A DNA stretch of 37,373 bases from Nitrososphaera sp. AFS. Lineage in GTDB: Archaea; Thermoproteota; Nitrososphaeria; Nitrososphaerales; Nitrososphaeraceae. The DNA lies in assembly GCF_009898475.1 (NCBI RefSeq), contig NZ_QURE01000001.1, positions 1-37,373 on the forward strand, in the 5' to 3' direction. The position numbers were made by a program, and so were the translations under genes. The notes beneath the pieces are model-generated. The model was not told the DNA's origin. It searched no databases and saw nothing but the letters and a program-made list of their open reading frames with translations. How positions within the stretch are numbered: position 1 is the first letter of the stretch; each line of letters opens with the position of its first letter. Positions 3,832 through 36,870 of the stretch are shown here, in pieces.

Positions 3832-4733
3832 GGTTCGACTTAATCGCGTTCAGATTGCGAGAGAGCACCTCTGACAACTCTTGCTTCATTGACGAAGTAC
3901 CACTACCGTCATCTCACTTAATAGAATGATACCTTGTTGACCTAAACTTAAATAATAATAATTCAGCCAATAAGTGGAACAAAATACATTTTTATCCAAT
4001 AATCCGTGCTGGCTTTGGCGTTGGCAGTGAGAATGATTGCCTCCGATCTAGCTGTTTAGTTTTAGCCTAAACAACTAAACGCTAACGATACGGCCATAGC
4101 TTTAGCTTAAACGACTGCGAATAAATTGATTCACGAGCTATATTGTTCCTCTCAAACACCGATAGATTATTTATTCAAAAGTTGGGTTACGGAATTAGAT
4201 TCTACCCAGCACAAAAGTTATTGTCGTTCATTAGGGGAGCAGAATTGTCCGACGAGAAAGGAGAAAATGTGCCAAGTTGAGGTTGTTTACACCGATGGTA
4301 TAAGCAAACATCTATGCCATTATACCTCTAAAGCATAGAGAATAAATCGGCGTTTGGCCAAAAGGAGAAATCTTGTCATTCTTATCTGGAATAATCACAT
4401 ACCTATGGGCTCCACATAGCAATCGATGGATTTCAGATGCGGTTTCGTAATTGATTGAAGTGACGAAGCCGAAAAATGGACACATGAGATATGAATTATT
4501 GAAAAAAATTGGTACTATTAAGTTATTTAGGCGACTGGTCACCTTCAGCAGCAGAAGATAATGAGTCTTTTATTGAGCTACTCTACCTCCGAATTTTATA
4601 GATACATGCATAAGAAATATTCATTTTTTCAATATCCTTATATATCCATTTGAGGAACAAGTGAAGATTTCGTGATGACTCAAATTCAAATAGCCGTCCG
4701 TCATCTAATTGACTTAGGGGTATAATCTAAGAA
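3832..4733. other. 900-nt intergenic region without a supported gene
   Basis: Two short open frames (about 70 and 76 codons, opposite strands) exist but neither looks like a known protein. A hairpin with arms GTTTAGTT (4054-4061) and AACTAAAC (4073-4080) is present. The near-palindromes TTTAGCCTAAAC (4060-4071) and TTTAGCTTAAAC (4101-4112) repeat 41 nt apart. A TATA-like TTATATAT at 4638-4645 could serve the rpoH operon with a leader of about 65 nt. Confidence 0.5.
4054..4080. repeat. 8-bp perfect inverted repeat
   Basis: GTTTAGTT and AACTAAAC flank an 11-nt loop. Part of it is echoed by a related near-palindrome at 4101-4112. It may be a terminator for the upstream gene or a binding site; there is no further evidence. 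Confidence 0.4.
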
Positions 4734-32191: not shown

Positions 32192-32288
32192 GCCGGGGTC
32201 GCCTAGCCTGGGAGGGCGCAAGCCTGGAACTCTTACAGCAAGCTTGTGATCCGCAAGGGTCCCGAGGGTTCAAATCCCTCTCCCGGCG
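32192..32288 (+). tRNA. tRNA-Ser (anticodon GGA) with 11-nt intron
   Basis: A type II tRNA. The acceptor stem GCCGGGG (32192-32198) pairs with TCCCGGC (32281-32287) with one G-U pair; the discriminator G fits serine. D stem GCCT/GGGC, anticodon stem CAAGC/GCTTG, a long variable arm GATCC-GCAA-GGGTC, and T stem GAGGG/CCCTC are all visible. The anticodon loop is 18 nt instead of 7. An 11-nt intron (32230-32240) after position 37 restores loop CTGGAAA with anticodon GGA (32226-32228). C-T-G before and C-A-G inside the intron pair, leaving 3-nt bulges at both cut sites, a relaxed bulge-helix-bulge motif. CCA is not encoded. Confidence 0.9.
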
Positions 32289-35311: not shown

Positions 35312-35539
35312 TTAAAAGTCAAAGGAGGAAAGCATGCAGTGGGGAATACTCAGATATACATCCCTTCCATCATACCTTTCAACCTTCGATTTGGGAATAA
35401 TGTATTCACGAAATTTTGCACCATGATCAATTATAACTATGCTGTCGCGAAACTCTGCAATCGCAATTCCACAAGGGCTTGCATCACTAGTTACTACTTT
35501 TCTTGCCTTAGTTAGTTCTCGCCAGTCCAAACAGTCCAC
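35312..35539 (-). CDS. Small PRC-barrel-like protein
   Basis: A 75-residue protein with the pattern of the small PRC-barrel-like proteins that are frequent in thaumarchaea. It shows a short N-terminal segment, a KVVTSDASPCGIAIAEF strand pair, then DSIVIIDHGAKFREYIIPKSKVERYDGRDVYLSI with the alternating hydrophobic pattern of a beta barrel and the YIPKS-V-RYDG-like core. The start is GTG at 35539, supported by AAGGTGA about 7 nt upstream; a stop lies in frame just before it. A TATA-like box on the same strand lies at 35589-35597. Members of this family have no agreed function. Gene reality is likely, function unknown. Confidence 0.6.
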   Translation of the reverse strand: MDCLDWRELTKARKVVTSDASPCGIAIAEFRDSIVIIDHGAKFREYIIPKSKVERYDGRDVYLSIPHCMLSSFDF

Positions 35540-35683
35540 GAAATCTCACCTTCGGTCAATTTTTGTATCTGCGCTCCTGTAGTTAAAATTATAAAAGAAT
35601 TGATGAAGATAATACGAGTAGACAAAATTATTTGACAATAATGATTTATGTTTTGTGTAAGAAAAAAAATGGAACAACTTCAA

Positions 35684-35690
35684 TTTATAG
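35684..35690 (+). promoter_or_regulatory. TATA-like box before RNA candidate
   Basis: TTTATAG lies about 29 nt before the first stem of the RNA candidate at 35716, correct archaeal promoter spacing with no protein start nearby. Confidence 0.35.
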
Positions 35691-35715
35691 AATCGGCAGA
35701 CCAGCTAAACAATTT

Positions 35716-35860
35716 GCGCTCGATACCGAAGCCTAATCTCAGCTTCTAAACTGAACCCAAACCAGGATTTCCTCCCAGACTGTCTAGCCCAACTTACTCT
35801 AGGCACAAGTCCGAGAGGTAGCTCCGGTTTGGGAACAAAAGAAGACAGAGGACCAAGCGC
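35716..35860 (+). ncRNA. Candidate structured non-coding RNA
   Basis: A nested set of complementary stretches. The closing stem is GCGCT/AGCGC (35716-35720 and 35856-35860). Inside are GAAGC/GCTTC (35728-35732 and 35742-35746), competing with CTTCT/AGAAG (35743-35747 and 35840-35844). The main stem is CCCAAACC-A-GGA with TCCGGTTTGGG (35756-35767 and 35823-35833), 11 pairs with one bulged A. Within it lie CCTC/GAGG (about 35771-35774 and 35814-35817) and GTCTAG/CTAGGC (a six-pair hairpin near 35782-35803). A TATA-like box precedes it by 29 nt. It matches no RNA family I know: no 5S, SRP, RNase P or tRNA hallmark. Strand is inferred from the TATA box. Confidence 0.4.
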
Positions 35861-36160
35861 TCTTGTTGTCGCGAAGTACGTTATGGCACAAATTAGCCTC
35901 TCGTCTCACCGATTCCATCTACCATGTCGCAAGCAGGTTACTCGGGTTGGACAACTGCAAAGCAAGTTTTACCTTTAGGAATCGAGTAAGACTGTTCAAA
36001 TACAAAATTCGAATTGGCTCTGGTTCGATTTGAGACATACATTTCCAACATTATCACAAATATTCAAAGTTACAAATCCGACATGTCATCATCTGTGTTC
36101 TAGGCCAAACCTTATTCCTACATCGGGCCTGCTAATAATGCTCTACACACGATTGCTGAG

Positions 36161-36169
36161 ATTTATAAA
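36161..36169 (+). promoter_or_regulatory. TATA box of the Elf1-like gene
   Basis: ATTTATAAA is centred about 36 nt upstream of the ATG at 36201, consistent with a very short leader. Confidence 0.5.
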
Positions 36170-36200
36170 CCTATTAAGGGTATCAAACAGACAATTAGGC

Positions 36201-36374
36201 ATGGGTGGCAGAAAAAGAAAAACGATAATAAGACCACAACGTAAAACTCGAAGCACTCAAGGGCGGTGTCCAAAGTGCAGTACCATTGTCAAGTTCTTAG
36301 TGAGTGGACCGGTCGGCAAGGAAATCTATGAATGCAGCGGATGTATGACAAAATATCCGATCGATGAGCTATAG
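36201..36374 (+). CDS. Elf1-like zinc-ribbon protein
   Basis: A 57-residue protein that begins MGGRKRKTIIRPQRK, a basic start like that of transcription elongation factor Elf1, followed by a zinc ribbon CPKC-x18-CSGC. Eukaryotic Elf1 and archaeal relatives bind RNA polymerase near the DNA entry side. I choose the ATG at 36201 because the upstream frame to 36030 is not protein-like and a TATA box fits this start. It is shorter than most archaeal Elf1 homologues (about 70-100), ending soon after the second cysteine pair. The Elf1 label is tentative; a generic zinc-ribbon protein is the alternative. Confidence 0.6.
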   Translation: MGGRKRKTIIRPQRKTRSTQGRCPKCSTIVKFLVSGPVGKEIYECSGCMTKYPIDEL

Positions 36375-36798: not shown

Positions 36799-36870
36799 GG
36801 GCTGATAGTTCAGGGGTAGAATGTGCGCTTCGCAAGTGCAAGGTCGTGGGTTCAAATCCCACTCAGTCCA
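36799..36870 (+). tRNA. tRNA-Ala (anticodon CGC)
   Basis: A 72-nt intron-free cloverleaf. Acceptor GGGCTGA pairs with TCAGTCC and includes the G3-U70 pair that marks alanine tRNAs; the discriminator is A. D arm GTTC/GAAT, anticodon stem TGCGC/GTGCA with loop TTCGCAA (anticodon CGC), and T stem GTGGG/CCCAC around TTCAAAT are present. CCA is not encoded. Confidence 0.95.

Follow-up and report, generated by a model that had tools for sequence, protein, structure and literature searches.

Long rods closed by pairing between their 5' and 3' ends are formed by SRP RNA and by bacterial 6S RNA. The element described here, a candidate structured RNA on the minus strand of the window (the whole 37,373-nt stretch of DNA that was analysed), resembles both in its end-closed long rod. 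It is unlike them in that it gave no match at gathering score to SRP, 6S or any other RNA in Rfam, and in that the SRP RNA of this genome lies on another contig. Orphan candidate structured RNAs obtained by comparative genomics were reported by Weinberg et al. 2010 (PMC2864571), and they share with our element the intergenic position, the non-coding character, a stable fold and some pair-keeping changes. Unlike such candidates, the element rests on two sequences, too few for a proper covariation test. The candidates of Weinberg et al. reportedly rest on alignments of more homologues.

The window is archaeal, as indicated by an archaeal 23S rRNA matched by Rfam at positions 1-1004. The element sits in a 660-bp spacer with a 75-aa open reading frame on one side and a divergent zinc-ribbon gene on the other, and a tRNA-Ala(CGC) gene, located at 36799-36870 by both ARAGORN and Rfam, lies beyond the zinc-ribbon gene. 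The features of the region are the following.

35312-35539, minus strand: 75-aa open reading frame, downstream of the element on the same strand, conserved
35662-35669, minus strand: T8 tract past the 3' end of the element, a possible archaeal terminator
35684-35690, plus strand: TTTATAG, the "TATA box" of the original prediction, judged not to be a promoter
35689-35917, minus strand: candidate structured RNA of about 229 nt with predicted ends, a rod closed by end pairing
35689-35701, minus strand: 3' arm of the closing stem, partner of 35903-35916
35708-35723, minus strand: 3' arm of the core helix, partner of 35853-35867
35756-35833, minus strand: distal hairpin, with arms 35756-35781 and 35808-35833
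35853-35867, minus strand: 5' arm of the core helix (AACAA, a small loop, then GCGCUUGG), pairing with 35708-35723
35903-35916, minus strand: 5' arm of the closing stem, pairing with 35689-35701
36201-36374, plus strand: zinc-ribbon gene of 57 aa, the divergently transcribed flank

The 75-aa product is conserved within the genus, being 69-89% identical to four other aligned orthologues, and showed no Pfam match above the cut-off (best UreE_N, E 0.26). Six loci were recovered when the genome contigs were scanned with this protein, and two copies occur in one assembly (L057, L058). The gene is preceded by a TATA-like box at 35585-35597. About 30 bp upstream of this box, positions 35627-35642 form a perfect dyad, ATTATT-TGAC-AATAAT, within a 30-nt block that is 93% identical to G001, another species of the same genus (probably Ca. 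Nitrosopolaris). Among the loci compared the dyad is exact in the window and G001 only, and from its sequence it looks like a putative regulator binding site. Of 70 family genomes, 67 gave a match to the 57-aa zinc-ribbon protein, a weak one in three of them (best E 5e-4 to 9e-6); the protein showed sub-threshold Pfam similarity to the zinc ribbons of Zn_ribbon_4, RPB9 and Elf1.

Segment 35686-35920 folded with z -5.64 on the minus strand and z -3.65 on the plus strand, and none of 200 dinucleotide shuffles was as good on either strand; the trimmed unit 35689-35917 gave z -5.58 on the minus strand. A scan of the window (614 segments of 235 nt on both strands, on a grid from 1101, past the rRNA, with two element segments put in by hand besides the grid) returned the minus-strand element as the most extreme segment (z -7.2, 25 shuffles), followed by a segment at 1219 on the minus strand (-4.2) and a grid segment overlapping the element (-3.7). 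The GC content of the element is 0.49 versus 0.27 and 0.39 in its flanks, and that of the tRNA-Ala is 0.54.

The original prediction had read the candidate from the plus strand, over 148 nt (35713-35860). The stems it listed are all present there: a 5-bp closing stem GCGCT/AGCGC (35716-35720 with 35856-35860), an 11-bp stem with one bulge (CCCAAACC-A-GGA with TCC-GGTTTGGG, 35756-35767 with 35823-35833) and, inside the latter, a 6-bp hairpin. The stability of those 148 nt is moderate only, with z -2.58 and 4 of 200 shuffles as good. The stretch does fold, as had been proposed, but the significant fold is larger and lies on the other strand, so the strand and ends first given were probably wrong.

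The same prediction had supplied the RNA with its own TATA box. The motif TTTATAG is indeed present at 35684-35690, and its promoter role is unsupported. The window contains it 9 times versus 7.8 expected, and as many copies were found in 35 of 100 shuffles. Its position overlaps the rod base of the larger fold, and in the only homologue, G001, the sequence there is TTAATCAG. Because of this chance frequency, the overlap with the rod base and the loss in the homologue, we find no promoter evidence in the motif, which moreover belongs to the plus strand, the strand that folds less well. Inspection by eye of the region before the 5' end of the minus-strand element revealed no TATA-like box common to both species, G001 having TATATATAG and the window lacking it. 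An intergenic fold thus calls for a test of its strand before any promoter is attributed to it.

Known RNA families were searched at the locus. No Rfam match reached gathering score at the element, and over 35400-36200 at E up to 10 only mir-427 (RF03364) was returned, with 28.4 bits and E 0.0027 versus a gathering score of 70 bits, a generic long hairpin. Archaeal SRP RNA (RF01857) had no match here to E 10, and archaeal RNase P RNA (RF00373) and 5S rRNA (RF00001) had none here either; the genome's single matches to the three families lie on contigs C71 (103.6 bits), C66 (175.4 bits) and C78 (76 bits), respectively. The tRNAs found in the window with ARAGORN or RF00005 are confined to 36799-36870 and 32192-32288; the latter, 97 nt long, was matched by Rfam and missed by ARAGORN, perhaps on account of an intron. 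The proposal of a new structured RNA distinct from tRNA, 5S, SRP and RNase P RNA therefore survives, as a candidate, in the lack of a gathering match and the location of those RNAs elsewhere.

A coding sequence was likewise considered and set aside, as the two longest stop-to-stop frames over the element gave no Pfam match. Since, in addition, the alignment of the element with its G001 homologue is interrupted internally by gaps 5, 13 and 17 columns long, the description of the stretch as gene-free holds as far as tested. Phage and plasmid collections contained no match to the element at E up to 0.01, and one 17-base pattern had no match in viral contigs. Titles and abstract openings among the literature matches listed held no description of the element, which leaves its absence from print unproven.

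The distribution of the element is narrow. A DNA search of 61 genomes (its own and 60 relatives) at E up to 0.001 detected it in the window and G001 only, and in G001 the order of reductase gene, 75-aa ORF, element, zinc ribbon and tRNA-Ala is the same. When the G001 element was the query and the E cut-off was 0.1, the 70 family genomes gave, besides the window and the query itself, 16 short matches with E of at least 0.011. A covariance model built from the two sequences gave as next best a match of 15.3 bits (E 0.05) from a different genus (genome G014) when run with stricter filters on the 70 family genomes, and one of 13.3 bits (E 0.018) at L035 1119-1197, from the same-genus genome G002, when run over 37 sources. 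The latter fit covers 79 nt with the interior of the model deleted and lies on the far side of the 75-aa gene; both matches were taken as noise.

Five further loci (G002, G005, L037, L057 and L056) carry the 75-aa gene with an alignable 60-100 bp before it and show no alignable element beyond, L056 spanning about 730 bp before the gene; L037 and L057 are both copies in the G004 assembly, L057 putatively so. In the 6 kb of G003 that were covered, the 75-aa gene was not found. Within the genus, a related sequence replaces the element at L036 (about 4140-4656), L035 (about 1733-2156) and L056 (about 1-330); it carries an ORF fragment, apparently disrupted at some of these loci on visual inspection.

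The check for compensatory changes, based on two sequences and therefore on a single homologue, gave a mixed answer, in that the rod is supported and the whole fold is not. As a whole, the G001 counterpart folds near the shuffled level (z -1.40, -1.17 and -1.21 on the minus-equivalent strand, -1.45 on the other), so that the stability expected of a structured RNA is found in the window (z -5.58, minus) and is missing in the homologue (z -1.17), whose GC content rises only slightly (0.41 versus 0.36 and 0.34 in the flanks). In the alignment of the window with G001, conservation is lower in paired columns (0.66) than in unpaired columns (0.75), and the consensus energy of the whole structure is not significant (316 of 1500 randomisations). 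Column shuffling, applied earlier as a control, gave 5 of 200 on the minus and 38 of 200 on the plus strand, but this procedure also destroys the window's own fold.

The long-range rod is retained. Folds predicted separately for the two species have 13 pairs in common, all in one core helix, in which 13 of 13 pairs are kept versus 8.1 expected, with 1 of 400 randomisations as good; these figures are optimistic, the helix having been picked once the folds were seen. Its small internal loop reads GA in the window and GC in G001, opposite AAA. The closing stem has 12 consensus pairs in the two species, with three two-sided changes, two one-sided and none broken, on a structure derived from the same two sequences used to score the changes. 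The full minus consensus comprises 48 pairs, seven of them changed on both sides. When limited to arm-to-arm pairs, the minus rod has 37 pairs and six two-sided changes, reached in 1 and 5 of 1500 substitution randomisations, versus 15 pairs and four two-sided changes for the plus rod, reached in 153 and 23 of 1500; this test was framed post hoc, with the consensus already seen, and its figures are optimistic.

The fold in the window is thus non-random and prefers one strand, its synteny is common to two species and its arm-to-arm pairing is retained. We read the element as a lineage-restricted structured small RNA of a single small Ca. Nitrosopolaris clade, transcribed from the minus strand of the spacer that separates two divergent genes, with a probability of about 0.48.

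The chief rival, somewhat unlikely in our estimate, is a decaying DNA palindrome, either a miniature inverted-repeat element or an inverted repeat produced by template switching, shared by two related species and devoid of any RNA role. The arms of the distal hairpin, 26 nt long and 73% complementary, are indeed nested as an inverted repeat within the one formed by the terminal arms, and a palindrome agrees with the folding of both strands beyond their shuffles and with the pairing of the window's arms above shuffled ones on both (1 and 2 of 300 on the minus strand, 0 and 0 on the plus). The stable distal hairpin, moreover, lies partly in segments missing from G001, which is gapped within both of its arms, and the exact minimum-energy pairs of the window are retained at the chance rate (39 of 62 versus 39.6 expected). 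In G001, however, arm pairing is clearly kept on one strand only: the arms alone were matched by 8 of 300 shuffles in duplex energy and 6 of 300 in expected arm pairs on the minus-equivalent strand, versus 103 and 29 of 300 on the other, where the result is not clear. The minus fold also contains 11 G-U pairs, and its symmetric loops are free of A-C mismatches, a pattern that minimum-energy folding favours anyway.

The marks of a miniature inverted-repeat element were lacking as well. The element is single-copy, the assembly (89.56% complete) holding besides it seven matches of 14-24 nt with E 1.7-5.8. Its end pattern is not repeated beyond chance, with 10 genome matches at up to two mismatches, itself included, versus 10 for the reversed control, and no target-site duplication was seen at the element by eye.

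Another reading, which appears unlikely, is a fold arisen by chance in diverging intergenic DNA whose slight conservation would reflect its place between two divergent promoters. It would account for the unremarkable counterpart in G001, the whole stability signal coming from one species, and for the modest excess of identity to G001, which per 30 nt is 0.5-0.8 in the arms of the element versus 0.27-0.63 in the spacer at 35920-36129. Against it, the z values of -5.6 to -7.2 fall outside those of the other window segments and of 612 segments taken from upstream of the zinc-ribbon gene at 28 loci in the family, the best of which reached -4.66 (L021); this moderately strong fold was rejected as a relative, having neither a covariance-model match nor an Rfam name. 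Least probable of all is that the element serves the 75-aa gene as a structured 5' leader or attenuator. It does lie on the same strand, about 150 nt upstream of the start codon, with its synteny kept in both element-bearing species. But the TATA-like box and the GGAGCGCAGATA stretch before the gene are kept not only in G001 but also in most loci without the element (G002, G005, L056 and L057, with L037 lacking the box), so that transcription of the gene seems to begin at a start of its own, downstream of the element, and the element, judged from these alignments, seems to be separate from it.

As a small RNA of the minus strand, the molecule would close on itself by pairing of its 5' and 3' ends (35903-35916 with 35689-35701), the core helix (35853-35867 with 35708-35723) would extend the rod, and the fast-changing distal hairpin would fill the middle. 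The transcript may end at the U-tract, ahead of the next gene's own promoter; the corresponding T8 tract is not conserved in G001. Base-paired ends could protect the molecule as a stable free RNA, and a protein may bind at the conserved core helix, small internal loop included. We regard as quite unlikely the further proposal of a new rod-shaped RNA in cold-soil ammonia-oxidising archaea, with a new predicted protein-binding core helix, that either arose within Ca. Nitrosopolaris or changes too fast for its relatives elsewhere to be recognised.

At present the element is one weakly supported candidate among many similar orphan structured RNAs. Transcription of the element would make it a lineage-specific structured small RNA of polar and alpine ammonia-oxidising archaea.
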